Shown here: positions 1 through 17,430 of the stretch, piece by piece
How the letters are laid out: each line of letters starts with the position of its first letter
How positions within the stretch are numbered: the first letter of the stretch is position 1
Source of the DNA: Agrococcus baldri
GTDB lineage: Bacteria > Actinomycetota > Actinomycetes > Actinomycetales > Microbacteriaceae
NCBI GenBank assembly: GCA_900114805.1
Contig: FOZN01000002.1
Span: forward strand, 62,001-126,000
Reading direction: 5' to 3'
DNA: 64,000 nucleotides
The notes under the pieces: model-generated
What the model saw: the letters and a program-made list of their open reading frames with translations, nothing else
Told to the model about the DNA's origin: nothing
Databases searched by the model: none
Made by a program: the position numbers and the translations under genes

Positions 1-429
1 CCTGCAACGAGCGTGTTCTCGGTCGGGCAGCATGCCACGAGCGAATCGCTCGAGATCTACGACTACCTGGTCATGGAGCTCGGCTTCGCAAACGGCGCTT
101 CGGCCGTCTGCGAGATCAGTCGGGGCGAGCGGCCGCGAAGTGCCAGCTATCTCGAGCTCACCGTCGTGGGCACCAAGGGTGTCGTCTCGCGCGAGTGGGA
201 TGCTGAGGGCGTGCTCGCCTGGACGGATACGGGCCTCACTGCCTGGGCTGCCGACGGCTTCGCAGAGCGAGTCTTCGTCCGCGAGCTCGAGGCCTTCGTC
301 GCCTCCTCCCGCAGCGAAGCTGAGGTCATCCCGCCGGTGTCAGCGGCCATCCACGCCGTCGACGTTGCTGCTGCCTCAGAAACGTCGCTGCGCGAGGGCC
401 GCACGATCGAGATCGGAGCATCGGTATGA
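1..429 (+). CDS. Gfo/Idh/MocA family oxidoreductase, C-terminal part (5' end outside window)
   Basis: The frame is open from the first base and ends at 429, giving 142 visible residues. They resemble the C-terminal alpha/beta domain of Gfo/Idh/MocA NAD(P)-dependent oxidoreductases: a stretch on gene-specific strands ending in a G-T-K-G turn near residue 58, then the typical tail in which a helix is followed by a short 'EGRTIEIG' strand. The Rossmann nucleotide-binding half lies upstream of the window. The stop overlaps the next gene by four bases (ATGA), so the two are co-transcribed and probably translationally coupled. Substrate cannot be told; members of the family oxidise sugars, inositols and related polyols. 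Confidence 0.75.
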   Translation, partial: PATSVFSVGQHATSESLEIYDYLVMELGFANGASAVCEISRGERPRSASYLELTVVGTKGVVSREWDAEGVLAWTDTGLTAWAADGFAERVFVRELEAFVASSRSEAEVIPPVSAAIHAVDVAAASETSLREGRTIEIGASV

Positions 430-938
430 GCGCCCCACTGACGACGCAGCCCGGGTTCACCCGGGCGCTCGCTGCCGTCCGCGGCGGCGAGATCGGCCTG
501 CTGCGAGCTGTCGCTCTCGACCTCGTCGCCGTCGGCGGGGGCGACGCGCTGCAGGGGCTCCGCATCGAGGCGATCGGCGTCTTGCGCGCCGTGACCGGGC
601 CGAGCTCGGTCGAACTCCAGGCCCACTCGACGTCGGACGGCGGTGCCACGACGTTCCTCGGGCGTGCCGGTCACGGGGTCGTCGTGAACGCACACGTGTC
701 GGTCGTCGCGGGAGAGCGTCGGGAGTGCTTGCGCGCGACGATCAGGCTGGTCGGCACGCACGGCTCCGTCCTTGTCGACCTGCTGCGCCCGCGTCTCGAC
801 GTTCGCACGGCAGCCGGGATGAGGCATCCGTCATTCGGCGCGCGCCGCGCAGAGGTCTCGCCCGGCGATGCAGCCGAAGCCCTTACCGCGATCGCAGCCT
901 CGGCGCGATCCGGCCAAACCATATCGATCACCTGGTGA
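426..938 (+). CDS. Stand-alone oxidoreductase C-terminal-domain-like protein (Gfo/Idh/MocA type, no Rossmann domain)
   Basis: A 170-residue protein starting on the ATGA overlap with the preceding oxidoreductase gene. Its order of elements matches only the C-terminal half of a Gfo/Idh/MocA protein: an 'RGGEIGLLRAV' opening near residue 19, a 'GTHGSVLVD' turn near residue 110 and a final 'SARSGQTISI' strand at the C-terminus. No glycine-rich dinucleotide motif is present. It could be a partner subunit, a substrate-binding or oligomerisation module, or the relic of a duplicated gene that lost its N-terminal half. The frame is intact and well packed between coupled genes, which argues for a functional protein. 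Family assignment is by eye and moderate. Confidence 0.5.
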   Translation: MSAPLTTQPGFTRALAAVRGGEIGLLRAVALDLVAVGGGDALQGLRIEAIGVLRAVTGPSSVELQAHSTSDGGATTFLGRAGHGVVVNAHVSVVAGERRECLRATIRLVGTHGSVLVDLLRPRLDVRTAAGMRHPSFGARRAEVSPGDAAEALTAIAASARSGQTISITW

Positions 939-951
939 TGGAGGACAAGAC

Positions 952-1797
952 ATGAAGTGGCTGACATTCGACGACGATGGTGCCATCAGGCACGGGTACG
1001 TCGAGGGCGACGAGATCGTCGTGACCGGCGACGGCGACCTTGCGGCAGTACTCCGGGGTGAGACCGGCACCGAGGCTGGTGCGCGCCGCCCGATCGAGGG
1101 CGCTCGCATCCTCGCTCCGCTGCTCACACCGGGCAAAGTGATCGCGGCCGCCGCGAACTATCAGGCGCACGTGAAGGAGGCCGGCGGTGAGGCCCGCGAC
1201 CAGGCCAAGGCAACGCCACGTCTCTTCCTGAAGCCCGACACCTCGATCACCGGTCCCGACGCGCCAGTGGTGCTCAACCCGATCACCCAGCAGCTCGACT
1301 GGGAGGTGGAGATCGCCGCGGTGATCGGTCGCCGTGCCCAGAACGTGCCTGTGGATGCGGCACTCGACTATGTGTTCGGCTACGCCACCAGCAACGACAT
1401 CTCCGCACGCAGCCTCGACCTCGGTGTCGAGCGCGACGGCGAGGCCTGGACCGGCTTCTTCGACTGGCTCGAGGGCAAATGGCTCGACGGCTCAGCGCCG
1501 CTCGGCCCTTACCTTGTCACTGCCGACGAAGTGCCAGACCCGCAGAACCTCGACCTCACGCTCGAGCTCAACGGTCAGATCATGCAGCGCGGGAGTTCGA
1601 CCGACATGGTCCACACCGTCGCTGAGCTCGTGTCGTTCAGCTCGAAGCTCATGACCCTCAACCCCGGTGACGTGATCCTCACGGGCACGCCCTCCGGAGT
1701 CGGGGCCACGACAGGCGTCTTCCTGAAGCCCGGCGACAGCATGGTCGCCGAGGTTCAGGGGCTCGGCTCTCTGACCACCCCCATCGTGGCGGCGTAA
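952..1797 (+). CDS. Fumarylacetoacetate hydrolase (FAH) family protein, first copy
   Basis: 281 residues. The ATG at 952 is chosen because a gaggac ribosome-binding site lies just upstream and the protein then begins like the family; an upstream in-frame extension would overlap the previous gene. Visible FAH features are 'NYQAHVKE' near residue 69, the metal-ligand strand 'DWEVEIAAVIG' near residue 117, 'SNDISARSLD' near residue 146 and the C-terminal 'PGDVILTGTPSGVG' loop. FAH proteins cleave or hydrate 2-oxo acids (acylpyruvate hydrolysis, oxaloacetate decarboxylation, 2-keto-3-deoxy-acid steps) with a divalent metal. The substrate here is unknown. A second, different FAH gene closes the same cluster. 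Confidence 0.85.
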   Translation: MKWLTFDDDGAIRHGYVEGDEIVVTGDGDLAAVLRGETGTEAGARRPIEGARILAPLLTPGKVIAAAANYQAHVKEAGGEARDQAKATPRLFLKPDTSITGPDAPVVLNPITQQLDWEVEIAAVIGRRAQNVPVDAALDYVFGYATSNDISARSLDLGVERDGEAWTGFFDWLEGKWLDGSAPLGPYLVTADEVPDPQNLDLTLELNGQIMQRGSSTDMVHTVAELVSFSSKLMTLNPGDVILTGTPSGVGATTGVFLKPGDSMVAEVQGLGSLTTPIVAA

Positions 1798-1866
1798 TGC
1801 CTCCCCGACTCACACACCCCATCCCCACGCATCATTTCCGATCCATCTGATTACAAAGGAGTCATC

Positions 1867-3471
1867 ATGAGATCACGTATCGCCGTCAGCGCTCTTGCGC
1901 TCGGCGTCGCCACCGCCATGCTGGCGGGCTGCGCAAGCAGCAGCCCCGACACCGAGGGGGAAACGGGCGACGCACTCACCTCGGCCAACCTGTACCTGTA
2001 CCAGAAGCCGGTGGTGTTCAATCCGCTGGCACCTGGACAGGGCGCCGAGCAACTGACCATGTCGCTCGTGTACAACGGCCTGTTCAACGTCGGGCCGGAC
2101 TTCGAGTCGGTGCCGCGGCTGGCAGAGTCGTGGGACGTGGCGGATGACGCCATGACCTACACCTTCCATTTGAGGGATGGCCTCACCTGGAGTGACGACG
2201 AGCCACTGACAGCAGATGACGTGGTCTTCACGTACAACCTGTTCGTCAACCCAGACGTCGCGAGCCCCAACACCGCACCCTTTGCAGCCGTCGTTGGCTT
2301 TGACGAAGTCCAAGACGGCACGGCTGACGCACTCGAGGGAATCGTGGCAGAGGACGACCAGACGGTCACGATCAGCCTGGCTGAACCGACCCCCGGCTTC
2401 CTCGCCCTCTTCGGCAGCGGCTACGGCATCCTGCCAGAGCACATCCTTGGCGACGTCGAACCCAGCGCCATCATGGAGCACGAGTTCTTCAAGAAGCCGA
2501 CGGTGAGTTCCGGCCCCTACGTCATGACGGAGTTCAACGTCGACCAGAACGTCGTGCTCGAGGCCAACGACAACTACTGGTCAGAGGTGGGCATCGACAC
2601 GCTCTACCTGCAGATGGTCACCAGTGACGTCGCTACCGCCCAGCTTGCGACGGGCGAGACCGATGTCGTGCAGATCTCTCCGCAAGACCTCGCAACGGTC
2701 GAGGGGCTCGACGGCGTCACGGTCAGCTCGGCGCCCTCGCCCGGATTCCTCCGGCTGCTCGTGAACTTCCAGAAGTTCGACGACGAGCGTGTCCGTCAGG
2801 CGTTCCTCTACGCCATCGACCGTCAAGGCATCATCGACGGCGTGCTCGGAGGCCACGGTGAGACCATCAACAGCACGATCATGACCCCGTGGGCGCTCCC
2901 TGATGATCTCGAAGCCTACGAGTATGACCCCGCGCGGGCGCAGGAGCTCCTCGAAGAAGCCGGCTACGACTTCTCGCAGGAACTGCGACTGAGCTGGATT
3001 CCGGGAACCGCCGACCGTGATGCAGCGGTCGCCGTCGTGCTCGAGAACCTCAAGGCAATCGGCATCAACGCCGTCGCCGACCAGATGGAGAGCGCGAACC
3101 AGCTGGGCATGATCGAGAACGCAGAGTACGACCTGATGGTCTCGGGCGGTGGCACGTACACCCCCGACCCGACGGTCTCGGCCAATGCGCTGCTGTGCGA
3201 TCGCGTCTTCCCGGCCGGTGGCAACACCTCGCTGTTCTGCGACGAGGAACTCGACACGCTGCTGAACGAGGGTGCCGTGACGGCCGACGAGGACGAGCGC
3301 GCAGCGATCTACCAGGACGCTGTTCGCTTGGACAACGAGCTGGTGCCCTACCTGTGGCTGTACGTTCCCGACACACTGTGGGCGACGAGCGACCGCTTGC
3401 AAGGCTTCGAGCCGCACGGCGACTTCGCCAACGGCTTCTGGAACGCCGCCGACTGGACGGTGACGGACTGA
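1867..3471 (+). CDS. ABC transporter substrate-binding lipoprotein, peptide/nickel type (SBP family 5)
   Basis: 534 residues. The N-terminus is a lipoprotein signal with an LAGC lipobox placing the lipidated cysteine at residue 22, followed by a short Ser/Asp linker. The mature part shows the family-5 pattern: 'TYTFHLRDGLTWSDDEPLTA' about residue 100, 'ADDVVFTYN', a central 'DRQGIIDGVL' segment and a C-terminal 'VPYLWLY' strand. A good AAGGAG site precedes the ATG. Such proteins bind peptides, but also opines, oligosaccharides, nickel chelates or amino-sugar derivatives. It heads the importer genes (binding protein, permease, permease, double ATPase) and presumably selects the cluster's substrate. 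Confidence 0.9.
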   Translation: MRSRIAVSALALGVATAMLAGCASSSPDTEGETGDALTSANLYLYQKPVVFNPLAPGQGAEQLTMSLVYNGLFNVGPDFESVPRLAESWDVADDAMTYTFHLRDGLTWSDDEPLTADDVVFTYNLFVNPDVASPNTAPFAAVVGFDEVQDGTADALEGIVAEDDQTVTISLAEPTPGFLALFGSGYGILPEHILGDVEPSAIMEHEFFKKPTVSSGPYVMTEFNVDQNVVLEANDNYWSEVGIDTLYLQMVTSDVATAQLATGETDVVQISPQDLATVEGLDGVTVSSAPSPGFLRLLVNFQKFDDERVRQAFLYAIDRQGIIDGVLGGHGETINSTIMTPWALPDDLEAYEYDPARAQELLEEAGYDFSQELRLSWIPGTADRDAAVAVVLENLKAIGINAVADQMESANQLGMIENAEYDLMVSGGGTYTPDPTVSANALLCDRVFPAGGNTSLFCDEELDTLLNEGAVTADEDERAAIYQDAVRLDNELVPYLWLYVPDTLWATSDRLQGFEPHGDFANGFWNAADWTVTD

Positions 3472-3475
3472 TCCC

Positions 3476-4435
3476 ATGCTGAGAACCCTCGTCACCCGCC
3501 TCGTCTCGAGCGTCGCCGTCTTCCTGCTCATCGCAGTTGGGCTGTTCGCGCTCGTACGCCTCGCCCCCGGCGACCCCATCGAGATGATGGTGCCGCCGGA
3601 GATCGGAGGCGCCGATCGAGAGGCCTACACCGCTGCTGTCCGTGAACGGTTCGGTCTCGACCAACCCGTCGTGGTGCAGTTCTGGCGGTGGCTTGGCGGG
3701 CTGATGACGGGAGATCTCGGCTACTCCTACACGAACGGTCAGCCGGTCGGCGAGCTTCTCGCCGACCGGCTCGGCCCGACAGCACTGCTGATGGGGAGCG
3801 CGCTGCTCATCGGCCTGATCATCGCCGTGCCGGCGGGCGTGATCGCCGCGGTGCGACAGAACAGCATCGCCGACTACACGATCAGCTCGGTGAGCGTCAT
3901 CGCGATCTCGGTGCCGAGCTTCTTCCTCGGCATGCTCGCCATCTACTTCTTCGCGGTAAAGCTGCAGGTGCTCCCGTCATCGGGTATGCATGGAACGGGT
4001 CGCGACGATCTCGGCGACCTCCTGCTGCATATGGTCATGCCGGTCGGTTTGCTCGCCCTAGCGAATGCGGCAAGCTTCATCCGCTACGTGCGCAGCGGCG
4101 TGCTCGAAGAGCTCGGCAAAGACTACGTCCGCACGATCATCGCGAAAGGCGGAACGCCGTCGAGGGCGTTGCGGCACGCGCTGCGCAACAGTCTGCTCTC
4201 ACTCGTCACGGTGCTCGCGATGACGATTCCCATCACGCTCTCTGGTGCAGTCGTGCTCGAGCAGATCTTCGCTTGGCCCGGCATGGGTCAACTGGCCATC
4301 TACGCCCTCACCAACCGCGACTACCCCATTCTCATCGGCTTCGGCCTCTACATCGCCCTGCTCGTCCTGGTCTGCAACCTGATCGCTGACCTGTCCTACT
4401 CGATCATCGACCCGAGAGTGAGGACCGCACGATGA
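3476..4435 (+). CDS. ABC transporter permease, DppB/OppB type
   Basis: 319 residues, starting four bases after the binding-protein stop. It shows the standard DppB layout: an N-terminal membrane helix beginning 'LVTRLVSSVAVFLLIAVGLF' with 'LVRLAPGDP' after it, an outward loop containing 'RFGLDQPVVVQFWRWL' and 'GDLGYSY', then five membrane helices. The cytoplasmic EAA-type loop, 'DYVRTIIAKGGT' near residue 215, contacts the ATPase. The C-terminus 'LSYSIIDPRVR' is typical. It forms the membrane channel with the next gene product, whose start overlaps its stop by ATGA. Confidence 0.92.
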   Translation: MLRTLVTRLVSSVAVFLLIAVGLFALVRLAPGDPIEMMVPPEIGGADREAYTAAVRERFGLDQPVVVQFWRWLGGLMTGDLGYSYTNGQPVGELLADRLGPTALLMGSALLIGLIIAVPAGVIAAVRQNSIADYTISSVSVIAISVPSFFLGMLAIYFFAVKLQVLPSSGMHGTGRDDLGDLLLHMVMPVGLLALANAASFIRYVRSGVLEELGKDYVRTIIAKGGTPSRALRHALRNSLLSLVTVLAMTIPITLSGAVVLEQIFAWPGMGQLAIYALTNRDYPILIGFGLYIALLVLVCNLIADLSYSIIDPRVRTAR

Positions 4436-5337
4436 AACGCCCAAGCCTGCTTCCCACGTCGGCCGTGAACCTCGTTCCGACCGTGCAGGAATCATCGCCG
4501 GACAAGCTCGCGCTGCGCCGGTTCACGCGAAACCCGATCGCGGTGATCGGCGTGATCGCGCTGCTGATCACGGTGCTTGCGAGCGTGCTCGCTCCGATCA
4601 TCAGCCCGTACCCGCCGACGGCCATCGACCTCACGAACGTGCGTCAGCCGCCATCCGCAGATCATCTGCTTGGCACAGACTCGACGGGCCGCGACGTGTT
4701 CAGTCGGCTGCTCGCGGGCGGACAGATCTCGCTCATGGTCGGCTTCCTGGCCGCCCTGATGGCGGTCGCGATCGGCACACTGGCGGGCGTGGCAGCCGGT
4801 TGGTTCGGTGGGATCATCGACGGGATCATCAGCCGCATCATCGACATCATGCTGTCGGTGCCCGCGGTGCTCGTGATCATCGTGCTCGCCGGCGTCATCG
4901 GCCCGAGCGTGCCGATGCTCATCGTGGTGATCGCTGGCCTTGCATGGCCGACGCCCGCGCGCATCGCCCGCGGCGTCGTGCTCAGCCTGCGAGAAGAAGA
5001 GTTCGTTCAAGCCGCCCGAGCCTTCGGCTCGCGAACAGGATTCATCATCTTTCGCCACCTCGTGCCGGGAGTGCTCCCGCCGATCGTGGTCTCGGCAACG
5101 CTGCTCGTGGCGGAAGCCGTGCTGCTCGAGTCGTCGCTGTCGTTCCTCGGCGCCGGCGTGCAACCGCCGGAATCCAGCTGGGGCAACATGCTGAACGAGG
5201 CACAGTCGCTCACCGTGCTCTCGTCCATGCCGTGGCTGTGGGTGCCTGCAGGCCTCATGATCGCCATCACCGTCCTGTCGGCAATGGCGGTCGGCGACGG
5301 CATCCGTGACGCAATCGACCCTCGGAAGAACACGTGA
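4432..5337 (+). CDS. ABC transporter permease, DppC/OppC type
   Basis: 301 residues, ATGA overlap with the upstream permease. A cytoplasmic N-terminus with 'LALRRFTRNPIAVIGV' leads into the first helix; 'HLLGTDSTGRDVFSRLLAG' near residue 77 is the DppC hallmark, and the EAA loop 'EEFVQAARAFGS' sits near residue 190. The C-terminal 'LSFLGAGVQPPESSWGNML' motif is intact. It pairs with the preceding DppB-type protein to form the pore. Nothing in the sequence narrows the substrate. Confidence 0.92.
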   Translation: MKRPSLLPTSAVNLVPTVQESSPDKLALRRFTRNPIAVIGVIALLITVLASVLAPIISPYPPTAIDLTNVRQPPSADHLLGTDSTGRDVFSRLLAGGQISLMVGFLAALMAVAIGTLAGVAAGWFGGIIDGIISRIIDIMLSVPAVLVIIVLAGVIGPSVPMLIVVIAGLAWPTPARIARGVVLSLREEEFVQAARAFGSRTGFIIFRHLVPGVLPPIVVSATLLVAEAVLLESSLSFLGAGVQPPESSWGNMLNEAQSLTVLSSMPWLWVPAGLMIAITVLSAMAVGDGIRDAIDPRKNT

Positions 5338-5338
5338 C

Positions 5339-7003
5339 ATGAACAACGAGACTGCGAAGAAGCCACTGCTCGCCGTGCGTGACCTCACGCTCGACATTGC
5401 CACCCCGAACGGGACGGTGCGGATCCTCGAAGATGTCGCTCTCGAAGTGCACCCGGGTGAGATCGTCGGCATCGTCGGCGAATCTGGATCAGGCAAGAGC
5501 ATGACCGCGCTCAGTGTGCTCCGAATCTTGCCGCCCACCGCAAAGATCGTCAGCGGAGGCATCGACTTCGAAGGCGTCGATCTTGCCACGCTCAGCGCTC
5601 GCCGGATGCGGAGCATCCGAGGTCGCCGCATCGCGATGGTCTTCCAAGACCACATGACGACCCTCGATCCTGTCATCACGATCGGGGCGCAGATCGTGGA
5701 GGCATACCGCATCCACCACCCTCGTTCCTCGCGGGCAGACGCACACGCGCGCATGGTCGAGACCCTGACGCAGGTCGGCGTGCTCGACGCCGTCGAGCGG
5801 GCGAAGCAGTACCCGCACCAGTGGTCCGGCGGTATGCGTCAGCGCGCGGTGATCGCGATGGCGCTGATCAACGACCCCGACCTCATCATCGCCGACGAGC
5901 CCACCACAGCGCTCGATGTCACGATCCAGGCGGAGATCCTCGCCGTGCTTCGGGAGCTCCGTGATCGGCGCGACCTGTCGATTCTGCTCATCACGCACGA
6001 CATGGGCGTCATCGCCGACATGGCCGATCGCATCGTCGTGATGAAAGAGGGGAAGATCGTGGAGACCGCGGAAGTGCACGCGCTCTTCTCGTCTCCCCAG
6101 CATCCGTACACACAGAAGCTGCTCGATGCGGTGCCTCGGCCGTCGGCCGAAGTGTCAGAGGTCGCGCAGCCGGAGGCAGCAGAGCCTGCTGTGCTCGAGG
6201 TGGAGAACCTCGTCGTGGAGTACAACCGGACGTGGCGCAGGAAGGGATTCCACGCGGTCGACGATGTCAGCTTCTCTGTGCCGAAGGGCAAGGTTGTCGG
6301 GCTGGTCGGCGAGTCGGGGTCGGGAAAATCGACGATCGGCAAGGCGATCGTGGGGCTCGCGCCGATTACGTCTGGGCACATCCGGGTCGGAGGAGTCGAG
6401 CTGAAGGAGTTGCGCGGCAGCGCGGCGCGCAAGGCGAGCGAGACCTACGGCATGGTGTTCCAGGATCCGGCGTCGTCGCTCAACCCGAGAATGACGATCG
6501 GCGAATGCATCGGCGAGCCGCTTGTGGCGCACCGGCAATCAATGTCGCGCACCGCACGCCGCGAACGTGTCGTCGAGCTGCTCGAGCAGGTTGAGTTGCC
6601 CGCCGCGTGGGTGACGCGTTTTCCGCATGAGCTCTCCGGTGGCCAGCGCCAGCGCGTCGGTGTCGCACGCGCCCTGGCGCTCGAGCCCGAGCTGCTGATC
6701 GCCGACGAGCCGACCTCGGCGCTCGACGTCTCTGTGCAGGCCGCGGTGCTCGACGTCTTTCAGGAGCTGCAGCAGCGGCTCGGCTTCTCGTGCCTGTTCA
6801 TCAGCCACGACCTCGCCGTCGTCGAACTGCTGTCAGAGAGCGTGGTCGTGCTGCAGCGCGGGCAGATCGTCGAGCAAGGCGACGCGCGATCGGTACTCAA
6901 TGCTCCGCAGACCGAGTACGCGCGCCGCCTCGTCGACGCCGCGCCGCTGCCAGACCCGGCGCGTCAGCGGGCCCGCCACCTCACAACGATCACCACTGCC
7001 TAA
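5339..7003 (+). CDS. ABC transporter double ATP-binding protein (DppD-DppF fusion type)
   Basis: 554 residues in two ABC domains. The first has Walker A GESGSGKS near residue 50, signature 'WSGGMRQR', Walker B 'LIIADEPTTALD'; the second has Walker A GESGSGKS near residue 325, signature 'LSGGQRQR', Walker B 'LLIADEPTSALD'. Each domain ends in the oligopeptide-transporter C-terminal extension (for example 'PQHPYTQKLLDAVPRP'). The ATG at 5339 directly follows the permease stop; an earlier in-frame start would overlap that gene by 32 bases. Fusion of DppD and DppF into one chain is common in actinobacteria. It powers the importer encoded by the three preceding genes. Confidence 0.92.
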   Translation: MNNETAKKPLLAVRDLTLDIATPNGTVRILEDVALEVHPGEIVGIVGESGSGKSMTALSVLRILPPTAKIVSGGIDFEGVDLATLSARRMRSIRGRRIAMVFQDHMTTLDPVITIGAQIVEAYRIHHPRSSRADAHARMVETLTQVGVLDAVERAKQYPHQWSGGMRQRAVIAMALINDPDLIIADEPTTALDVTIQAEILAVLRELRDRRDLSILLITHDMGVIADMADRIVVMKEGKIVETAEVHALFSSPQHPYTQKLLDAVPRPSAEVSEVAQPEAAEPAVLEVENLVVEYNRTWRRKGFHAVDDVSFSVPKGKVVGLVGESGSGKSTIGKAIVGLAPITSGHIRVGGVELKELRGSAARKASETYGMVFQDPASSLNPRMTIGECIGEPLVAHRQSMSRTARRERVVELLEQVELPAAWVTRFPHELSGGQRQRVGVARALALEPELLIADEPTSALDVSVQAAVLDVFQELQQRLGFSCLFISHDLAVVELLSESVVVLQRGQIVEQGDARSVLNAPQTEYARRLVDAAPLPDPARQRARHLTTITTA

Positions 7004-7039
7004 TTCCGTACGACCCATCCCCAAACAGGAGAACACGCA

Positions 7040-7885
7040 ATGCGCATCATGACTGTCTACGCCCATCCCGCAGACACCATCACCAACTGCGGCGGCACGC
7101 TCGCGCTGCACGCCGACGCCGGTGACGAGATCGTGGCCGTGATCCTCACGCACGGTGGCCGCATCCACCCGAACGTGTACGCAGAGGAGGCGCGCAAGGA
7201 AGACGCCGATCCGAGGCTCACCGCGGCCGGCAGGACTGAGATCATCGAGAACAAGAAGGAAGAGCTGCGTCGCGCCGCCGACATCATCGGCATCGGCACG
7301 ATCGAGTTCCTCGACCACGACGATCTCATGAGCACCGTCCAGGAGGACGTCGTGGATCAGGTCGCCGAGCTCATCGCAGAGCATCGACCCGACGTCGTCA
7401 TCGCCGACTACCCGCAGAACCCCGCTGTGACGAACTCCACCCACACCGTCGCGACGATGGTCCTGATCGCGGCGATGGACCGCGCGGCCTCGTTCCTGAG
7501 GAACCTGGACGGCAAGGAAGAGGTCAACGTCAAGCAGGTGTTCCTGGGCGGCCTCCCCGTGCTCGCGAGCGACGCGCTCTCGACCTATGGGGTGCGCAAC
7601 GACCTCATGATCGACATCACGTCGGTCGTCGGCCGGAAGATCGCGGCGATGGACTGCTTCGCCAGCCAGGGCTACGACGGCCCGTTCGCCCGGAAGCTCA
7701 TTGAGGCGAGCAACGGCGAGTTCGGCCGCTCGGCGGGTGTCGCGCTCGCGGAGCCGTACGTCCGGTTCCGCAGCGAGACAAGGTCGCTGCTCCCGCTGAC
7801 CGAACACGCAGATGGGGTTGACCCGCTCACACGTCACGTCACGTACTCCCAGTTCGACGTGCGGCGCGAGTTCCCGATCAAGTAG
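7040..7885 (+). CDS. PIG-L (LmbE-like) deacetylase family protein with an altered active-site motif
   Basis: 281 residues with a clear AGGAG site. The N-terminus has the family fold signature 'VYAHPADTITNCGGTLALHA'. In MshB and relatives this motif is H-P-D-D: the first Asp is the general base and His plus the second Asp bind zinc. Here His9 and Asp12 remain, but the general-base position is Ala11. A third potential zinc ligand is His135 in 'TNSTHTVATM', where other members have H-x-x-H. Family members remove N-acyl groups from amino sugars, mycothiol precursors or similar amides. The protein may use another base, catalyse another reaction, or belong to a divergent clade. Its place after the importer suggests it acts on the imported compound. 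Confidence 0.75.
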   Translation: MRIMTVYAHPADTITNCGGTLALHADAGDEIVAVILTHGGRIHPNVYAEEARKEDADPRLTAAGRTEIIENKKEELRRAADIIGIGTIEFLDHDDLMSTVQEDVVDQVAELIAEHRPDVVIADYPQNPAVTNSTHTVATMVLIAAMDRAASFLRNLDGKEEVNVKQVFLGGLPVLASDALSTYGVRNDLMIDITSVVGRKIAAMDCFASQGYDGPFARKLIEASNGEFGRSAGVALAEPYVRFRSETRSLLPLTEHADGVDPLTRHVTYSQFDVRREFPIK

Positions 7886-7917
7886 CGACCGAGCCCATCC
7901 GCCTGATTGGAAGACGT

Positions 7918-9030
7918 ATGACCGTGACCGTCATGTCCGACCGCATCGGCCGCTCGATCCATGAGCTGCCGACCCCCTCCGTGTTGATCGACCTGCCGAC
8001 GCTGCACCGCAACATCGAGCAGATGATGGGTGTTGCGCGCGACTCTGACGTCGCCCTGCGCCCGCACTGGAAGACGAGCAAGTGCGCCGAAGTCGGTCGC
8101 CTGCAGCTCGGGGCGGGGGCGGTCGGGCTGACGGCAGCGACAGCAGCAGAGGTCGAGGCTCTTGTCGACGCCGGCTTTGACGACATCTTCTGGGCTTATT
8201 CGCCCGTCGGTGCCCACCGCATCCGGACCGCTCTGCGCACCGCGCAGCGCGCTCGGGTGCTCATCGGGCTCGACTCGCTCGCGGCAGCGGAGCCGCTCGC
8301 CGAAGCCGCTGTCGCGGAGGGGATCGAGTTCGAAGTTCGCCTCGAAGTCGATACCGGGCTAGGGCGTGCTGGCGTCGACGCCGACGACGCGTTGACGGTC
8401 GCCCGGCGTCTCGCGCGGATGCCCGGGCTGGTGCTCGAGGGCGTCTTCACGCACGAGGGGCATGTCCAAGGCGTCGGCGCCGACCCCGAGCGCCGCATGA
8501 GCACCGGCACGGCAGCGGGACGCCTGTTGGTGGAGGTCGCTGAAACGCTTCGGGCAGACGGACTCGAGATTCCGGGCGTCTCAGTCGGATCGACCGCCGG
8601 AGCGCGATCGGCACCTCGTGTTGCGGGAGTGACAGAGGCGCGCCCCGGCACGTATGTCTACGGTGATGAGAACCAGGTCGCGATCGGCACGGTCGATCCT
8701 GGTGACACCGCGATGACCGTTCTCAGCAGTGTCATCAGCACGCAGCGCGGCGAGCCAGTGCTCGTCGACGCTGGCATCAAAGCAATGAGCTCGGATGGTG
8801 GCATGCACGGCGACGGTCGGATCGGCACCGTGGTCTCCGACGGCGGGGGCCTGATCTCGGTCGGGCATGAGGAGCACGGCTTCCTCCGCGGTTCGTCGCC
8901 GCTGCAGGTCGGTGACCTGATTCGGGTGCGACCCAACCATGCATGTGGGCTCACCAACATGCATTCGCACGTCTTCGCCGTCGAGGACGGCGTAGTCGTC
9001 GACATCTGGCCCGTTCTGGGCCGTCACTAG
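7918..9030 (+). CDS. D-threonine aldolase / D-serine dehydratase-like PLP enzyme (alanine racemase N-terminal fold)
   Basis: 370 residues, TIM-barrel PLP enzyme. 'LRPHWKTSKCAEVG' near residue 47 carries the presumptive PLP-binding Lys52 (family pattern R-P-H-x-K-T). Near the C-terminus 'RPNHACGLTNMH' supplies the His/Cys pair (about 341 and 343) that binds the catalytic metal in D-serine dehydratase and D-threonine aldolase. Relatives act on D-serine, D-threonine, D-threo-3-hydroxyaspartate or phenylserine by dehydration or retro-aldol cleavage. A ggaag site precedes the ATG at 7918; a second ATG at 7933 is possible. The following RidA gene fits an enzyme that releases an enamine/imine, which favours a dehydratase-type reaction, but this is inference. 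Confidence 0.85.
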   Translation: MTVTVMSDRIGRSIHELPTPSVLIDLPTLHRNIEQMMGVARDSDVALRPHWKTSKCAEVGRLQLGAGAVGLTAATAAEVEALVDAGFDDIFWAYSPVGAHRIRTALRTAQRARVLIGLDSLAAAEPLAEAAVAEGIEFEVRLEVDTGLGRAGVDADDALTVARRLARMPGLVLEGVFTHEGHVQGVGADPERRMSTGTAAGRLLVEVAETLRADGLEIPGVSVGSTAGARSAPRVAGVTEARPGTYVYGDENQVAIGTVDPGDTAMTVLSSVISTQRGEPVLVDAGIKAMSSDGGMHGDGRIGTVVSDGGGLISVGHEEHGFLRGSSPLQVGDLIRVRPNHACGLTNMHSHVFAVEDGVVVDIWPVLGRH

Positions 9031-9043
9031 AAAAGGAATTGCA

Positions 9044-9421
9044 ATGCAGCAGATCTCAGCAACCACGGCCCCGGCTCCGGCAGGCCCATACTCCGCAGGC
9101 ATCGTCAGCGGCGGCTTCCTGTTCCTCGCGGGTCAAGGGCCGTTCAACACGGAGTCGGAGATCGTCGGAGAGACGTTCGCGGATCAGGTCAGACAGACAT
9201 TCGCGAATCTCGAGGCCGTCGCCGCAGCGGCGGGCACGTCGATGCGCAATGCGGTGCGCATCGGCGTCTACCTCAACGACCTCAGTGACTGGGCCGAATT
9301 CAACGAGGTCTCGAAGGAGTTCCTGACCACGCCCTACCCGGCGCGCACGTCGATCCAGGCGGACTTGAACGGCTTCCTTGTCGAGATCGATGCGATCCTC
9401 GCCATCTCCTCGGAGGAGTGA
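9044..9421 (+). CDS. RidA (YjgF/YER057c/UK114) family protein
   Basis: 125 residues, the usual length. It starts 'ISATTAPAPAGPYSAGIVSG' with the family's A-P-x-x-x-G-P-Y-S-x-x pattern, and carries 'FADQVRQTFANLEAVAAAAG' and 'VYLNDLSDWAEFNEV'. RidA proteins form trimers that hydrolyse reactive enamine/imine intermediates released by PLP enzymes to 2-oxo acids and ammonium. The Arg needed for carboxylate binding in canonical RidA appears in 'YPARTSIQ' near residue 103. It lies directly after a PLP lyase-like gene and before a FAH gene, consistent with handling that enzyme's unstable product. Confidence 0.9.
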   Translation: MQQISATTAPAPAGPYSAGIVSGGFLFLAGQGPFNTESEIVGETFADQVRQTFANLEAVAAAAGTSMRNAVRIGVYLNDLSDWAEFNEVSKEFLTTPYPARTSIQADLNGFLVEIDAILAISSEE

Positions 9422-9426
9422 CGGCC

Positions 9427-10284
9427 ATGGAACTGATGCGCATCGGAGCGATCGGCCGAGAACGCCCGGTCGTCAGGCACGACGGCGCGACCTACGCACT
9501 GGACAGCCTCACCGGCGACATCGACGGAGTCTTCCTCGCCAGTGACGGGATCGGTCGCGTCGCGCAGGCGCTCGCCGCTGGTGAGCTGCCTGCGGTGAGC
9601 ATCGAGGGCGAACGCGTCGGCGCGCCGATCGCCCGGCCCACCGCAGTGATCTGCATCGGCCAGAACTACGCCGCCCATGCCGCGGAGTCGGGCGCCGAGC
9701 CGCCAAGCGAGCTGATCGTCTTCTTCAAGCACCCCAACACCGTCGTAGGGCCGTTCGACGACGTCGTCATCCCCCCGGGCGCCGAGCAACTCGACTGGGA
9801 GGTCGAGCTCGGCGTGGTCATCGGGCGCGCCGCGAACCGCCTCTCCTCCCGCGACGAGGCAGAGGCCGCGATCGCTGGGTACGTCGTGTGCAACGACGTC
9901 TCGGAGCGTCACCATCAGCTTGTTACTTCGCTGGGCCAGTGGTCGAAAGGCAAGACCGCGCCGACCTTCTGCCCCGTCGGTCCCCTGCTCGTTCCCGCGG
10001 GCGAGGTTGAGTCGGGCGACTTGCGGATCTGGTCGACGGTGAATGGCGAGCCGCGACAGGACTCGACCACGGCCGACCTCATCTTCGATGTGCCGGCGAT
10101 CGTTCACGGGCTGTCGCAGCACGTCCAGCTCGAGCCCGGCGATCTCATCTGCACCGGTACGCCGCAGGGTGTCGCGTTGTCGGGCCGCTTTCCGTATCTC
10201 GCGGACGGCGACGTGATGGAGATGGGGCTAACCGGCCTCGGCGAGCAGCGCTCGCACCTCATCGCGGCGAGCGCGCGGGCATGA
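9427..10284 (+). CDS. Fumarylacetoacetate hydrolase (FAH) family protein, second copy
   Basis: 285 residues. The ATG at 9427 is preferred because the ggagga site at 9412-9417 is correctly spaced; a GTG at 9418 lies too close to that site. Family features are 'GQNYAAHAAESG' near residue 77, 'QLDWEVELGVVIGRA' near residue 119, 'CNDVSERHHQ' near residue 155, a 'GKTAPTFCPVGPLL' segment near residue 177 and 'PGDLICTGTPQGV' at the C-terminus. It differs clearly from the first FAH protein of the cluster, so the two probably perform successive or different steps. It is the last gene of the + strand cluster; the next gene faces it only four bases away. Confidence 0.87.
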   Translation: MELMRIGAIGRERPVVRHDGATYALDSLTGDIDGVFLASDGIGRVAQALAAGELPAVSIEGERVGAPIARPTAVICIGQNYAAHAAESGAEPPSELIVFFKHPNTVVGPFDDVVIPPGAEQLDWEVELGVVIGRAANRLSSRDEAEAAIAGYVVCNDVSERHHQLVTSLGQWSKGKTAPTFCPVGPLLVPAGEVESGDLRIWSTVNGEPRQDSTTADLIFDVPAIVHGLSQHVQLEPGDLICTGTPQGVALSGRFPYLADGDVMEMGLTGLGEQRSHLIAASARA

Positions 10285-10288
10285 GTCG

Positions 10289-11491
10289 TCAGCTGAGCGA
10301 GTCGAGCGCCTGCGTCAGGTCGGCGATCAGATCCGCGGCCTCTTCCAGCCCCACCGAGAGCCGCAGCAGATCCTCCGGCACGGCCAGCTCGGTGCCCTTC
10401 ACCGACGCGTGCGTCATCTCCGACGGGTAGCAGACGAGCGATTCGATGCCGCCGAGCGACTCTGCCAGCTGGAACAGCCGCGTGCGCGCCACCAGCTCGT
10501 GCACCGCGGGCACGCCGCCGGCGAGCTGGATCGAGACCATGCCGCCGAACCCGCGCATCTGCCGCTTCGCGAGCTCGTGCTGCGGGTGATCCGGCAGTCC
10601 CGGGTAGTGCACGGCGGTGACGGCCGGGTGGCCGACGAGCGCTTCGGCGACCGCCTGCGCGTTCTGGCAGTGCCGCTCAACCCGCACCGCGAGGGTCTTG
10701 AGCGACCGGCTCGTCAGCCAGGCGTCGAACGGGCTGTTCACGGCCCCCACCGCGAACTGCTGGAACCCGACGCTCTCGGCGAGGGACGCATCCGCCGTCA
10801 CCACCGCACCACCGACGAGGTCGGAGTGCCCGCCGATGTACTTCGTGGTCGAGTGGATGACCGCGTCGGCGCCGAGCGCGAGCGGCTGCTGCAGGTAGGG
10901 CGTCGCGAAGGTGTTGTCGGCCACGACGACCGCGCCGGCCGCGTGCCCGAGCTCGGCGAGGCCGGCGATGTCGGCGACCTTCATGAGCGGGTTCGAGGGC
11001 GTCTCGACCCACAGGATGCGGGTGTTCGACCGCACCGCCGCGCGCACGGCGTCGAGATCGCTGGCGTCGGCGGTCGAGATCTCGACGCCCCACTTCTGGT
11101 GCAGCTGCGAGACGAGCCGGTGCGTGCCGCCGTAGACGTCGTTGCCCATCAGCACGTGGTCGCCGGGCTTGAGCACGGCGCGCAGCAGGGCGTCCTCTGC
11201 GGCCAGGCCTGAGCCGAAGGTGAACGCGTGTGTGCCGCCCTCGAGGCTCGCGAGCTGCTGCTGCAGCGCGTCGCGGCTGGGGTTGCCGCCGCGCGAGTAC
11301 TCGTAGCCGTCGCGGAACCCGCCCACGCCGTCCTGCACGAACGTGCTGGTCATGAAGATGGGCGGGATGACGGCGCCGGTGCGCGGGTCGAAGCTCTGCC
11401 CGTCGTGGATGGCGCGGGTTGCGAAGCCGCGGCGGTTGGACACGGTCGCTTCGGCGGGCACGGGGGCGGATGCGTTCGGCTCGGTGGTCAT
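10289..11491 (-). CDS. metB: Cystathionine gamma-synthase/gamma-lyase family PLP enzyme
   Basis: 400 residues, Cys/Met-metabolism PLP family. Seen: 'YEYSRGGNPSRDALQQQLA' near residue 62, 'TFGSGLAAEDALLRAV', the PLP-phosphate segment, and 'HSTTKYIGGHSDLVGG' with the PLP lysine near residue 215; C-terminal 'GGIESLVCYPSEMTHASV' is typical of cystathionine gamma-synthase/lyase. It is transcribed with cbs, whose stop lies one base from its start. With CBS upstream the pair most probably runs homocysteine to cystathionine to cysteine (reverse transsulfuration), so the lyase direction is likely although the protein would usually be annotated MetB. No clear terminator was found after the stop. Confidence 0.88.
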   Translation of the reverse strand: MTTEPNASAPVPAEATVSNRRGFATRAIHDGQSFDPRTGAVIPPIFMTSTFVQDGVGGFRDGYEYSRGGNPSRDALQQQLASLEGGTHAFTFGSGLAAEDALLRAVLKPGDHVLMGNDVYGGTHRLVSQLHQKWGVEISTADASDLDAVRAAVRSNTRILWVETPSNPLMKVADIAGLAELGHAAGAVVVADNTFATPYLQQPLALGADAVIHSTTKYIGGHSDLVGGAVVTADASLAESVGFQQFAVGAVNSPFDAWLTSRSLKTLAVRVERHCQNAQAVAEALVGHPAVTAVHYPGLPDHPQHELAKRQMRGFGGMVSIQLAGGVPAVHELVARTRLFQLAESLGGIESLVCYPSEMTHASVKGTELAVPEDLLRLSVGLEEAADLIADLTQALDSLS

Positions 11492-13457: not shown

Positions 13458-14564
13458 CTACCCCTCGGTGAGCGGCGCCAGGTCAGGGTTCTCGGCGTAC
13501 GCCTCTGCGGCGTTCTCCTGCGTCACGATGACCGGCTCGAGCAGGTTCGAGGGAACCTCCATCGCGCCGTTGTCCTGCGTGCCGGTGGTGGTGGGCTCCT
13601 CGCCCGCCTGCAGCGCCTGCGCCATCTCGATCGCCGCGGCGACGAGCGCGCGCGTGTCCTTGTAGATGGTGGAGTACTGCACGCCGTCGACGATCGACTG
13701 CACCGACTCGACCTCGGAGTCCTGGCCCGTCACGACCGGCACGTCGCGGCCGGCGTTCTGCACCGAGGTGAGGATGGCGCGGGCGAGGTTGTCGTTCGGC
13801 GAGAGCACGCCGTGCAGGTCCTCACCGCCGTACGAGGCCTGCAGGATCGTGTCCATGCGGTTCTGCGCGTTCTCCGCCGCCCAGTCCTCGGTCGAGGTCT
13901 GCTGCACCGTGGTCTGGCCGGAGACGACGTTCAGGGTGCCGTCGTCGATCATCGGCTGCAGCACGCTCATCGCGCCGTCGAAGAAGACCGCCGAGTTCGA
14001 GTCGTCGGCCGAGCCCGAGAAGAGCTCGATGTTCCAGGTGTCGAGGTCGCCGTGCTGCGCCTCGAGGCCCTCGAGCAGCGACTGCGCCTGCAGCTCGCCG
14101 ACGTGGAAGTTGTCGAACGCGACGTAGTAGTCGACCAGCTCGCTGTCCTGGATCAGGCGGTCGTAGGCGATCACCGTGATGTCGGCGGCGTCGGCGGCCT
14201 CGAGCTGCGTCGCCAGCTGCCCGGTGTCTGCGGCGCCGATGATGATGACCTCTGCGCCGTCGGCGATCATGCTCTGGATCTGCTGCTGCTGGTCGCCGAC
14301 CGAGTTCGACGAGCCCGCGTACTGCACGTTGCCGGTGAAGCCGGCGTCGGTCAGGCCGTTGGTGAACAGGTCGCCGGCCAGCACCCAGTTCTCACTGGTG
14401 CGGTCGGGCAGGGCGACGCCGATCGTGGCGTCGGCGGCGAAGCCGGCCTGCGGCTCACCGCTCTCGCCCTCGGTGCCGGTGCCGGTGTCGGCGCGGCCGC
14501 AGCCGGTCAGTGCGATGCTGACGGCTGCGATGCCGGCCAGCGCCGCGATGGTGGTCTTCCTCAT
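13458..14564 (-). CDS. chvE: Sugar ABC transporter substrate-binding lipoprotein, ChvE type
   Basis: 368 residues. Lipoprotein signal with lipobox 'ALTGC' (Cys22), then an acidic linker. The mature protein is a periplasmic-binding-protein type I fold: 'ATIGVALPDRTSENWVLAG' near residue 46, 'DGAEVIIIGAADTGQL', 'ADITVIAYDRLIQDSELVDY', 'LFSGSADDSNSAVFFDGAM' and 'PVVTGQDSEVESVQSI'. This matches the ChvE/multiple-monosaccharide group that binds xylose, glucose, galactose or arabinose. It is the last gene of a minus-strand operon, after permease and ATPase; the binding protein more often comes first. Confidence 0.9.
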   Translation of the reverse strand: MRKTTIAALAGIAAVSIALTGCGRADTGTGTEGESGEPQAGFAADATIGVALPDRTSENWVLAGDLFTNGLTDAGFTGNVQYAGSSNSVGDQQQQIQSMIADGAEVIIIGAADTGQLATQLEAADAADITVIAYDRLIQDSELVDYYVAFDNFHVGELQAQSLLEGLEAQHGDLDTWNIELFSGSADDSNSAVFFDGAMSVLQPMIDDGTLNVVSGQTTVQQTSTEDWAAENAQNRMDTILQASYGGEDLHGVLSPNDNLARAILTSVQNAGRDVPVVTGQDSEVESVQSIVDGVQYSTIYKDTRALVAAAIEMAQALQAGEEPTTTGTQDNGAMEVPSNLLEPVIVTQENAAEAYAENPDLAPLTEG

Positions 14565-14610
14565 CAGTACTCCTGTGGTGTTCGGTGTGGGATGGGTTGG
14601 GTCGGGTGGC

Positions 14611-15891
14611 TCAGGACGCGACCGTCGGTGCGTCGCGGTCGCGGCCGCGGGTGAGCCCGCGCTGCAGTAGCGCGATGATCGAGAAGCGGCCCTGGCGCTT
14701 GTTGAGCACGTCGATGGCGACGGCGATCAGCAGCACGAGGCCCTTGATCACCTGGATCCAGTCGGAGCCGGTGCCGAGCGCGAACAGGCCGTTCGAGAGC
14801 ACGGCCATCACGAGGCCTCCGATGATGCTGCCGGTGACGGTGCCGATGCCGCCGGCCACGGCCGCGCCGCCGATGAAGACCGCGGCGATCGCGTCGAGCT
14901 CCCAGGTGACGCCGTCGGCGGGGCCGGCCGCCTGGGCGCGGGCGATCCACATCATGCCCGCGACCGATGCGAGCACCGACATGTTGGCGATCACGAAGAA
15001 GTCGATCCAGCGCGAGCGCACGCCCGAGAGCTGGGCTGCGCGGCGGTTGCCGCCGACGGCGTAGATGTGGCGGCCGAGCGTGGTGCGCTGGGTCAGGAAG
15101 CCGTAGCCGAGCACGAAGGCGACCAGCAGGATGCCCGAGAGCGGGAAGCTCGTGCCGGGACGGCCGCTCGCGAAGAGCAGGGTCGTCGCGACGATGATGC
15201 CCGAGAGCAGCGCCAGCCGGGTGATCAGCACCCACTGCGGGGGGACCTCTGCGCCGATCCGCTTGCGACGCGCACGGCCGCGCAGCTCGAAGACCACCAG
15301 CGCGACGATCGCGAGCAGGCCGAGCAGCAGCGTGAGGTTGTTGTAGCCGGTGTCGGGACCGACCTCCGGCAGGTAGCCGGCGAGCGCGTCGACGAAGCCG
15401 CGGTCGACGCCGATGCCGCGCGACTGCCCGACGACCTGGTTGAGGCCGCGGAAGAGCAGCATGCCGGCGAGCGTCACGATGAAGGCCGGCACTCCGACGA
15501 ACGCGACCCAGAATCCCTGCCAGGCGCCGATCAGCAGGCCGAGCCCGAGGCCGATCAGGATCGCCACGCCCCATGGCAGTCCCCAGTCGTTCATGGAGAT
15601 GGCCACGACCACGCTCGCGAACGCCGCCACCGAGCCGACCGAGAGGTCGATGTGGCCAGCGATGATCACCATCACCATGCCGATCGCGAGGATCAGGATG
15701 TACGACTGCGACTGCACGATGTTGATGACGTTGCCCGGGGCGAGGGTCGTGCCGCCGGTGGCGAACTGGAAGGCGAGCACGATCACGATCAGGGCGCCGA
15801 GGATGCCGAACTCCTTCAGCGAGCCCTTCTTGCCGAAGAGCATGCTGAACTCGGCCAGGAAGCCGCGGCGCTCGTCCACGCGATCGGTCAT
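14611..15891 (-). CDS. mmsB: Sugar ABC transporter permease, MmsB/GguB type
   Basis: 426 residues, strongly hydrophobic with about ten predicted membrane segments. Family marks are 'IIAGHIDLSVGSVAAFASVV' near residue 80 and 'VGVPAFIVTLAGMLLFRGLN' near residue 132. The central insert 'RGRARRKRIGAEVPPQWV' and the longer-than-RbsC length are characteristic of the MmsB/XylH subgroup. It begins three bases after the ATPase stop and forms the pore of the ChvE importer. Confidence 0.92.
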   Translation of the reverse strand: MTDRVDERRGFLAEFSMLFGKKGSLKEFGILGALIVIVLAFQFATGGTTLAPGNVINIVQSQSYILILAIGMVMVIIAGHIDLSVGSVAAFASVVVAISMNDWGLPWGVAILIGLGLGLLIGAWQGFWVAFVGVPAFIVTLAGMLLFRGLNQVVGQSRGIGVDRGFVDALAGYLPEVGPDTGYNNLTLLLGLLAIVALVVFELRGRARRKRIGAEVPPQWVLITRLALLSGIIVATTLLFASGRPGTSFPLSGILLVAFVLGYGFLTQRTTLGRHIYAVGGNRRAAQLSGVRSRWIDFFVIANMSVLASVAGMMWIARAQAAGPADGVTWELDAIAAVFIGGAAVAGGIGTVTGSIIGGLVMAVLSNGLFALGTGSDWIQVIKGLVLLIAVAIDVLNKRQGRFSIIALLQRGLTRGRDRDAPTVAS

Positions 15892-15894
15892 GTC

Positions 15895-17430
15895 TCAGTC
15901 ACCCTTCGTCGGCGCCATGCGGCGCATGAGCATCTCCTGGTCGGCATCGGCGGCCTGCAGCTCGCCTGTGATGCGCCCCTCGAAGATCGTGTAGATGCGG
16001 TCGGCCAGGCCCAGCAGCTCCGGCAGCTCGGAGGAGATCAGGATCACGCCCTTGCCCGCATCTGCCAGCTCACGCACGATCTGGTAGATCTCGCTCTTCG
16101 CGCCGACGTCGATGCCGCGGGTGGGCTCGTCGAGGATCAGCAGGTCGGGGTCGGTGAACATCCACTTCGCTAGCACCACCTTCTGCTGGTTGCCGCCCGA
16201 GAGCGTGTCGACGCCGTGCTCGACGCTCGGCGACTTGATGCGCAGCGAGCGGCGGTACTCTTCCGCCGTCTCTGCCTCCTGCAGCCCGTCGACGACGCCG
16301 GCGCGGGCGATCTTGGACAGCTTCGCCGAGACGATCGAGCGCTTGATGGTGTCGAGCAGGTTCAGCCCAAGCGCCTTGCGGTCCTCGCTCACGTAGGCGA
16401 TGCCGTGGCGGATCGCGTCGGGCACGGAGCGCACCTTGATCTCCTCGCCGTCCTTGTGGATCGTGCCGCCGAGCCAGGTGCCGTACTGCCGGCCGAAGAC
16501 GCTCATGGCGAGCTCGGTGCGGCCCGCGCCCATCAGGCCGGCGAAGCCGACGATCTCGCCGCGCCGCACGGTGAAGCTCGAGCCCTTCGCGACCAGGCGC
16601 TCGGCAGAGAGCGGATGCTGCACCGTCCAGTCGCGCACCTCGAAGAAGACCTCGCCCGTGGTGTGGGCGCGCTCTGGGAAGCGCTGACCGAGCGTGCGAC
16701 CGACCATGCCGCGGATGATGCGATCCTCGTCGACGGCGCCCTCGGCGATGTCGAGCGTCTCGATCATCCTGCCGTCGCGGATGATGGTGATGTCGTCGGC
16801 GATCTGCTCGATCTCGTTGAGCTTGTGGGAGATCATGATCGACGTCACGCCCTTGGCCTTCAGGCCGACGATCAGGTCGAGCAGGTGCTGCGAGTCAGCC
16901 TCGTTGAGCGCCGCGGTGGGCTCGTCGAGGATGAGCAGCTTGACGTGCTTCTCGAGCGCCTTGGCGATCTCGACCAGCTGCTGCTTGCCGACGCCGATGT
17001 GCTTGATGGGCGTGTCGGGGTCCTCGTCCAGGCCGACGCGCGCGAGCAGCTCGGTGGCGCGCATCCGCACCGTGTCCCAGTCGATCGCGATGCCGCGACG
17101 GGGCTCGTTGCCGAGGAAGATGTTCTCGGCGATCGACAGCTCGGGCACGAGCGCGAGCTCCTGGTGGATGATGACGATGCCGGCGCGCTCGGAGTCGTTG
17201 ATGCTGCCGAAGGCCACCGGCTCGTTCTGGTAGACGATCTCGCCGTCGAAGGTGCCGTGCGGGTAGACGCCGGAGAGCACCTTCATGAGCGTCGACTTGC
17301 CCGCGCCGTTCTCGCCGCAGATCGCGTGGATGGTGCCCTTGCGAACCTCGAGGCTGACTGCGTCGAGGGCGCGCACGCCGGGGAACTCCTTCGTGATGCT
17401 CCGCATCGACAGGATCACCGGCTCAGCCAC
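15895..17430 (-). CDS. mmsA: Sugar ABC transporter double ATP-binding protein, MmsA/GguA type
   Basis: 511 residues in two ABC domains. The first has Walker A '[16 protein letters not shown]' near residue 41 and signature '[13 protein letters not shown]'; the second carries '[16 protein letters not shown]' in place of a strict Walker A, signature '[14 protein letters not shown]' and Walker B '[12 protein letters not shown]'. Both ends match the sugar (CUT2) importer ATPases. The first gene of the mmsA-mmsB-chvE operon, it begins 68 bases downstream of a 22-bp palindrome that matches one next to the ROK regulator gene. Confidence 0.93.

Follow-up and report, generated by a model that had tools for sequence, protein, structure and literature searches.

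What compound is degraded by the dense set of importer and enzyme genes at the left end of this DNA, and does the set begin where the sequence begins? The window, i.e. the whole stretch of 64,000 nucleotides that was analysed, corresponds to G000:C6:62001-126000 of a 2.90-Mb genome. It opens inside a block of 15 genes in the order IclR, amidohydrolase-2 (AH2), aminotransferase (AT), D-aminoacylase-like hydrolase (Daa), Gfo/Idh, half Gfo/Idh (hGfo), FAH1, four-gene importer, PIG-L, DSD1, RidA and FAH2. The block may encode a catabolic route for an N-acylated amino compound with sugar-acid chemistry, equipped with its own importer and regulator; this reading of the sequences is tentative and, in our judgement, falls somewhat short of an even chance. 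All reactions, the regulation and the substrate class proposed below are what we infer from the genes present and their linkage, from a conserved palindrome, from the lack of the block at the homologous site and from residues of the active sites.

The DNA to the left of the window (L003; window position equals L003 position minus 12000) extends the block by about 5.2 kb to iclR and by about 10.9 kb to its inferred left boundary. Gene starts were picked by eye. Features are as follows:

L003 1265-6668, divergent from iclR: two BNR-repeat genes whose products have signal-like N-termini
L003 about 6831-7637, same strand as the in-window genes, coupled, outside the window: iclR
L003 7634-8533, same strand, coupled, outside the window: AH2
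L003 8530-9855, same strand, coupled, outside the window: AT, a GSA-like class III aminotransferase
L003 about 9860-11416, same strand, coupled, outside the window: Daa
1..429, + strand: 3' end of a Gfo/Idh/MocA dehydrogenase gene; the full gene begins 587 bases left of the window
426..938, + strand: hGfo, similar to the C-terminal portion of a further Gfo-like protein (Gfo2), without Rossmann domain
952..1797, + strand: FAH1, FAA_hydrolase family; top NCBIfam match 2,4-didehydro-3-deoxy-L-rhamnonate hydrolase, under cut-off
1867..3471, + strand: family-5 solute-binding protein (SBP_bac_5) with a lipobox-like N-terminus, by eye; its structure model is of low confidence (pLDDT 57)
3476..4435, + strand: DppB-type permease
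4432..5337, + strand: DppC-type permease
5339..7003, + strand: fused DppD-DppF-type ATPase
7040..7885, + strand: PIG-L superfamily protein with HPAD where HPDD is expected, the alanine being common to GalB
7918..9030, + strand: DSD1-like pyridoxal-phosphate (PLP) enzyme (Ala_racemase_N/D-ser_dehydrat) with a dehydratase-type H341-x-C343
9044..9421, + strand: RidA
9418..10284, + strand: FAH2, probably accessory
10285..10294, no strand: where the 21,157-base block ends on the right, as placed by blastn alignment to contig 3 of A. baldri and to G249 and by G+C

The genes named in the original prediction, which was made on the window, are all present at the coordinates given and belong to the families it named. 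Its list was correct in its entries and incomplete in extent, as iclR, AH2, AT, Daa and the BNR genes lie upstream, outside the window. Intergenic gaps range from -4 to 69 bases between AH2 and FAH2, and likewise within the window.

Linkage was determined in 13 relatives found by one PIG-L scan of named genomes. Five of these are close (Ruania albidiflava, Ca. Ruania gallistercoris, Microbacteriaceae PS02070, a Brachybacterium metagenome-assembled genome and A. baldri); the others are Enemella, two Nakamurella, Microlunatus, two Virgisporangium, Asanoa and Pseudolysinimonas. Presence was scored by tblastn on fetched stretches rather than on open reading frame maps, as the greedy gene caller picks shadow frames. 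The close five carry the block collinearly and in the same order, FAH2 excepted. IclR, AH2, AT, Daa, Gfo and FAH1 occur together in 13/13 relatives (in Brachybacterium on two overlapping stretches of one contig), and in whole-genome searches AH2, AT and Daa shared a contig in every one of the 13. The four importer parts were found in 12 relatives and are missing from the Enemella stretch; RidA was found in 12 stretches, six times at 31-35% identity, but not in that of Microlunatus. DSD1 is present in 11 stretches, the exceptions being Enemella and Microlunatus, whose whole genomes gave no DSD1 at E<=1e-25 either. PIG-L lies in the same stretch in nine relatives and on another contig in four (Enemella, N. 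aerolata and both Virgisporangium). These data bear out the claim that the genes form one coherent unit for import and catabolism, and the neighbourhood comparison suggested in the original prediction, which might have revealed rarely linked enzymes, showed linkage of IclR, AH2, AT, Daa, Gfo and FAH1 in 13/13 of these PIG-L-selected relatives.

FAH2 as a core gene was not supported. FAH2 proper was found in 3/13 stretches (stretches only, not whole genomes; weaker matches at FAH1 places were left uncounted). In PS02070 and A. baldri it comes after RidA, in neither Ruania does it do so, and the Brachybacterium contig stops soon past RidA. FAH2 is thus probably accessory. In the seven most distant relatives IclR, AH2, AT, Daa, Gfo and FAH1 share 31-62% identity with the block proteins (PIG-L, 62-71%), and since these values are so low, orthology there was deduced from the genes being together; Pseudolysinimonas is closer. 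In Pseudolysinimonas kribbensis (L023, L042), the AT, Daa, Gfo and binding-protein genes match partly or in pieces, which may reflect decay or sequencing error. A histidinol-dehydrogenase-like gene adjoins two distant versions, at L040 1850-3154 (Asanoa) and, by eye only, at L036 6086-7405 (Virgisporangium aurantiacum).

The block is apparently an acquired catabolic island. By DNA collinearity (blastn), contig 3 of A. baldri (G686) lacks the counterpart of C6:51138-72294 of the studied genome (21,157 bases, from L003 1138 to window position 10294) while the flanks match, and G249, of the same genus, lacks C6 47029-72294; A. baldri holds its own copy of the block elsewhere, on contig 8. G+C content is 66.1% in the island compared to 70.5 and 70.4% in the flanks. 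ClpP, the sole housekeeping protein used in the identity contrast, is 97.3% identical between the studied genome and G249, 95.5% to A. baldri, 81.1% to PS02070 and 76.9% to both Ruania species, values that point to an Agrococcus-like host. Against R. albidiflava, 13 of 14 shared block proteins show 79-94% identity, the exception being hGfo with 72%. Against PS02070, Daa, hGfo, DSD1, IclR and FAH2 fall under the ClpP level (62-80%), so the contrast is clear for Ruania only. PIG-L is rare: among 297 genomes of the order, three including the studied one gave a match at E<=1e-25. For AH2, a search of 396 genomes from the phylum at E<=1e-50 found the studied genome and no other. Searches against 72,556 plasmid records returned no PIG-L match at E<=1e-20; AH2 and DSD1 each gave one distant plasmid match. 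Among the island genes no integrase was recognised, and the island ends revealed no direct repeat of at least 9 bases; the inverted matches found there measure no more than 10 and 9 bases. The PIG-L protein (window 7040-7885), unlike most of its neighbours, is 93-94% identical to those of Ruania versus 88% to that of A. baldri, with no clear identity breakpoint along the stretch. Further to the right, a xylose-type sugar importer of the ATP-binding cassette (ABC) type (binding protein, permease and ATPase, by eye) follows cystathionine genes at window 13458-17430, and G249 DNA matches at the same place.

Control of the island probably lies with IclR, whose predicted target is the palindrome TGGAA-N5-TTCCA. 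The iclR start lies 31 bases downstream of this element, which also sits closely in front of iclR in all five close relatives. It occurs once in L003 compared to zero times in 200 shuffles, and is the single site in the 2.9-Mb genome (backward-read control, 0). G249, which has no island, contains no site (control, 2), while PS02070 and A. baldri contain two each (control, one each). Of the five distant stretches scanned, those of Asanoa, Microlunatus (two) and Enemella also contain the palindrome; that of N. lactea has none and that of Pseudolysinimonas a shorter one only.

BNR genes lie divergent from iclR in five of six genomes, i.e. the studied one and four of the close five: Ca. R. gallistercoris, Brachybacterium and, as contig-end pieces, R. 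albidiflava and A. baldri (the latter a weak 52-residue match). No BNR gene was found in the 2.1 kb examined in PS02070; a weaker match (27-28%) is present in the N. aerolata stretch. The five BNR proteins that were read contain three to four Asp boxes each. From signal-like N-termini, BNR proteins of the island are probably secreted.

Which enzymes could perform deacylation and deamination was addressed by inspecting active-site residues. In DSD1, H341-x-C343 is invariant in 8/8 sequences. A His/Cys metal site characterises D-serine dehydratase and a His/Asp site D-threonine aldolase, and 3LLX, a 'predicted aldolase or racemase', also has His/Cys (PMC4401734, in excerpt). An aldolase function, and with it the cleavage by DSD1 that the original prediction had considered, was rejected because the metal site is His/Cys and not His/Asp. 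The nearest PDB relatives of DSD1 are D-serine and D-threo-3-hydroxyaspartate dehydratases. In Daa, H67, H69, C96, H224, H255, D400, Y196, Y286 and R416 are invariant in 8/8 sequences. With these nine residues Daa has the features of the D-aminoacylase family, namely the presumed metal ligands, the catalytic Asp and the Tyr/Tyr/Arg set for the acetamido and carboxylate groups; apart from the naming of the metal ligands, the roles are those described for D-aminoacylase-type deacylases in an excerpt of PMC12017989.

N-deacylation had originally been assigned to the PIG-L protein. In 14/14 PIG-L proteins compared the motif reads AHPAD, i.e. alanine replaces the first Asp of HPDD, a residue which we take to be the general base. 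H9, D12 and H135, presumably the zinc ligands, are invariant in the same 14 proteins, and PF02585 is matched above its cut-off. Among 24 family members from five genomes, 16 carry HPDD, six HPAD, one HSAD and one HIGD. Five of the HPAD proteins belong to the cluster, and the sixth is an additional N. lactea copy outside it (L107, G688:C12:133180-133599); HSAD, as in GalB, was found in an A. baldri protein outside the cluster (L097, G686:C2:121439-121825) and HIGD in Ruania. GalB (5cgz), the top PDB sequence match of the PIG-L protein, has the same alanine. The default assignment as a deacetylase was rejected on the contrast between HPAD in those 14/14 proteins and HPDD in the 16 controls, and with the shared alanine and a weak similarity in sequence the protein would more likely act as a GalB-like hydratase/lyase than as a deacetylase. 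As the PIG-L protein carries HPAD instead of HPDD, Daa is the better candidate deacylase. The overall logic of deacylation, dehydrative deamination and cleavage by FAH enzymes is supported, with the first step reassigned.

FAH1 and FAH2 both scored best against 2,4-didehydro-3-deoxy-L-rhamnonate hydrolase (NF053535), with 183 and 232 bits at a cut-off of 500. The 'half-oxidoreductase' of the original prediction is a real gene that resembles the C-terminal part of Gfo2; it has no Pfam or NCBIfam match and no clear likeness to the neighbouring Gfo (hhalign probability 0.8%), so that its being a fragment of that protein was not supported. A search of five sequences with filters off matched hGfo to longer proteins, best to that of Pseudolysinimonas (E 4e-42) and next to those of N. 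aerolata, Enemella and V. ochraceum (E 3e-7 to 5e-7); the V. aurantiacum one reached no better than 0.03. When three longer Gfo2 proteins were scanned against Pfam, that of V. ochraceum was above the Gfo/Idh cut-offs, that of N. aerolata below, and that of Enemella without match. The dN/dS ratio was 0.26-0.44 for hGfo versus 0.12-0.16 for Gfo (three pairs each), i.e. hGfo is the faster-evolving gene.

Taken together, the island has the look of a hitherto undescribed pathway that consumes an amino compound with an N-acyl group, which could be an amino-sugar acid. The pathway might proceed as follows. BNR-repeat proteins would act on an external polymer, a product of which would be brought in by the family-5 ABC importer. 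The substrate would be N-acylated and contain a 3-hydroxyl and a 2-amino acid part in D configuration; the likeliest candidate is an amino-sugar acid, or else an amino sugar that Gfo/Idh would oxidise to its acid, with AH2 as a possible lactonase. Daa would remove the N-acyl group, DSD1 would dehydrate and deaminate, and RidA would hydrolyse the resulting enamine/imine. The product, a 2-oxo-3-deoxy acid, would be oxidised and split by the FAH enzymes to pyruvate-level products, while the PIG-L protein could serve as a GalB-like hydratase/lyase and AT could act on an aldehyde or on a further amino group. The lean to sugar-acid chemistry is based on the FAH types and on three observations in relatives: in Microlunatus, without DSD1 in the genome or RidA in the stretch, a sugar-acid-dehydratase-like gene adjoins PIG-L; GH36 genes lie near two distant versions of the cluster; and, of 12 plasmid matches that are distant relatives of AT/AH2, four had their neighbourhoods opened, two of which contain IlvD/Edd dehydratases and two show other settings. 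Taken furthest, this would be a non-phosphorylative pathway of a new kind, acting on an N-acylated and perhaps di-amino sugar acid derived from a polymer. Secreted BNR-fold enzymes of uncharacterised type would release the sugar acid, and the pathway would combine a D-aminoacylase-type deacylase, deamination by DSD1/RidA, a PIG-L-fold hydratase/lyase, AT and diketo-acid hydrolases and would spread between actinobacterial families as one island; in our estimate this extended version is unlikely.

Several points weigh against the sugar-acid route. In the core six Daa sequences Arg257 and His292 occupy the positions of A. faecalis Lys252 and Ser289 (numbering counted by hand on the alignment, on which the Gln298 position could not be aligned), so that the carboxylate clamp is altered, and the two distant Daa sequences have Ala at the first of these positions and Asn or Ala at the second. 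Thr293, also in the core six, is found at the position of PpOngB Ser292, which argues against N-acetylglucosaminic acid (GlcNAc1A) itself. The NCBIfam scores given for island proteins are under the model cut-offs. The linkage counts come from genomes selected for carrying PIG-L and may overstate the part of this protein. A fold search with the PIG-L model, a poor one (pLDDT 62.4), ranked deacetylase or putative deacetylase chains 1-5 and GalB sixth with similar E-values; it does not decide between the deacetylase and the GalB type and does not support the rejection made above. No kinase, aldolase or C4-dehydrogenase was assigned in the island, and the functions given to AT, AH2 and PIG-L are conjecture. 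Finally, [FY]RIP, which we take to be the arginine motif of GH33 sialidases, is missing from all five BNR proteins, which may not be glycosidases.

The alternative that survives best follows the original prediction and takes an N-acylated 3-hydroxy-D-amino acid or short peptide, rather than a sugar acid, to be the compound that is imported and, after deacylation and dehydration, broken down. It fits the peptide-type importer, the D-aminoacylases in the family of Daa together with the Thr at the OngB Ser292 position, and the D-serine and D-threo-3-hydroxyaspartate dehydratases as best PDB relatives of DSD1. Family-5 binding proteins carry sugars too, however. Moreover, Gfo/Idh, Gfo2, the diketo-sugar-acid-type FAH enzymes, the BNR and GH36 genes and the Microlunatus sugar-acid-dehydratase-like gene are left unexplained, and we regard this alternative as doubtful.

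A second alternative is the ong route itself. The ong cluster of Pseudoalteromonas prydzensis is involved in oxidative chitin utilisation and converts GlcNAc1A to 2-keto-3-deoxygluconate (KDG) 6-phosphate (PMC9537276 and PMC12017989, both in excerpt). In the former source, as excerpted, OngB deacetylates GlcNAc1A, OngC, which accepts D-serine and D-threonine too, converts the amine to KDG, and the RidA protein OngD is required for growth; a D-aminoacylase-like deacylase, a PLP-dependent D-amino acid deaminase and RidA thus form an experimentally shown set (PMC9537276). The island has the same set of a deacylase, a DSD1/D-threonine-aldolase-fold deaminase and RidA, and PpOngB is among the eight PDB sequences listed for Daa. 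Yet the Daa profile ranks D-aminoacylases above PpOngB (330 vs 285 bits), the OngB-type Lys254, Ser291 and Ser292 are replaced by Arg257, His292 and Thr293 in the core six, and no KDG kinase, sodium:solute symporter (SSS) or MurR/RpiR regulator was recognised among the island genes (the island was searched, not the rest of the genome). Membership in ong was rejected on these grounds, and catabolism of GlcNAc1A from oxidised chitin is very unlikely. A nonulosonate-like (sialic-acid-type) sugar freed by the BNR proteins is a highly improbable import substrate: the divergent BNR genes in five of six genomes (two of them contig-end pieces only) favour it, but the [FY]RIP motif is missing from 5/5 proteins, PS02070 has no BNR gene in its 2.1 kb, and no sialate-catabolism lyase, kinase or epimerase is among the island genes.

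If the sugar-acid route is correct, the PIG-L proteins offer a natural test of whether chemistry has changed on a deacetylase fold, and the single palindrome and clean borders make the pathway easy to test in soil-type actinobacteria.

Compared to known systems, the likenesses are partial. The PIG-L protein shares with GalB, a 4-oxalomesaconate hydratase of PIG-L fold (5cgz), the alanine in place of the first HPDD Asp; identity in the fold match is 24%, and the island contains no gallate genes. The FAH proteins score best to the L-rhamnose diketo-hydrolase pathway (NF053535), but the island genes include no rhamnonate dehydratase. Among NCBIfam models IclR scored best to BhcR and DSD1 to BhcC of the beta-hydroxyaspartate cycle (127/350 and 146/690 bits); the HxC metal site differs from that of BhcC, which we take to be His/Asp, and no other cycle genes were recognised in the island. 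Searches of open-access papers for the island gene set returned nothing, or the ong paper only, and within the searches made the statement that no described pathway matches held, ong being the nearest and failing membership. The likeness to ong lies in the linkage of deaminase and RidA to the deacylase (DSD1 in 11/13 and RidA in 12/13 stretches of relatives). The differences are IclR instead of MurR/RpiR, a family-5 ABC importer instead of an SSS and a TonB-dependent receptor, FAH enzymes instead of KdgK, altered specificity residues in the deacylase, and the additional Gfo/Idh, AH2, AT and PIG-L genes in an actinobacterial host. If the pathway is real, the island would provide a second lineage and gene set for the recently reported deacylate-then-deaminate route by which N-acyl amino-sugar acids are broken down.

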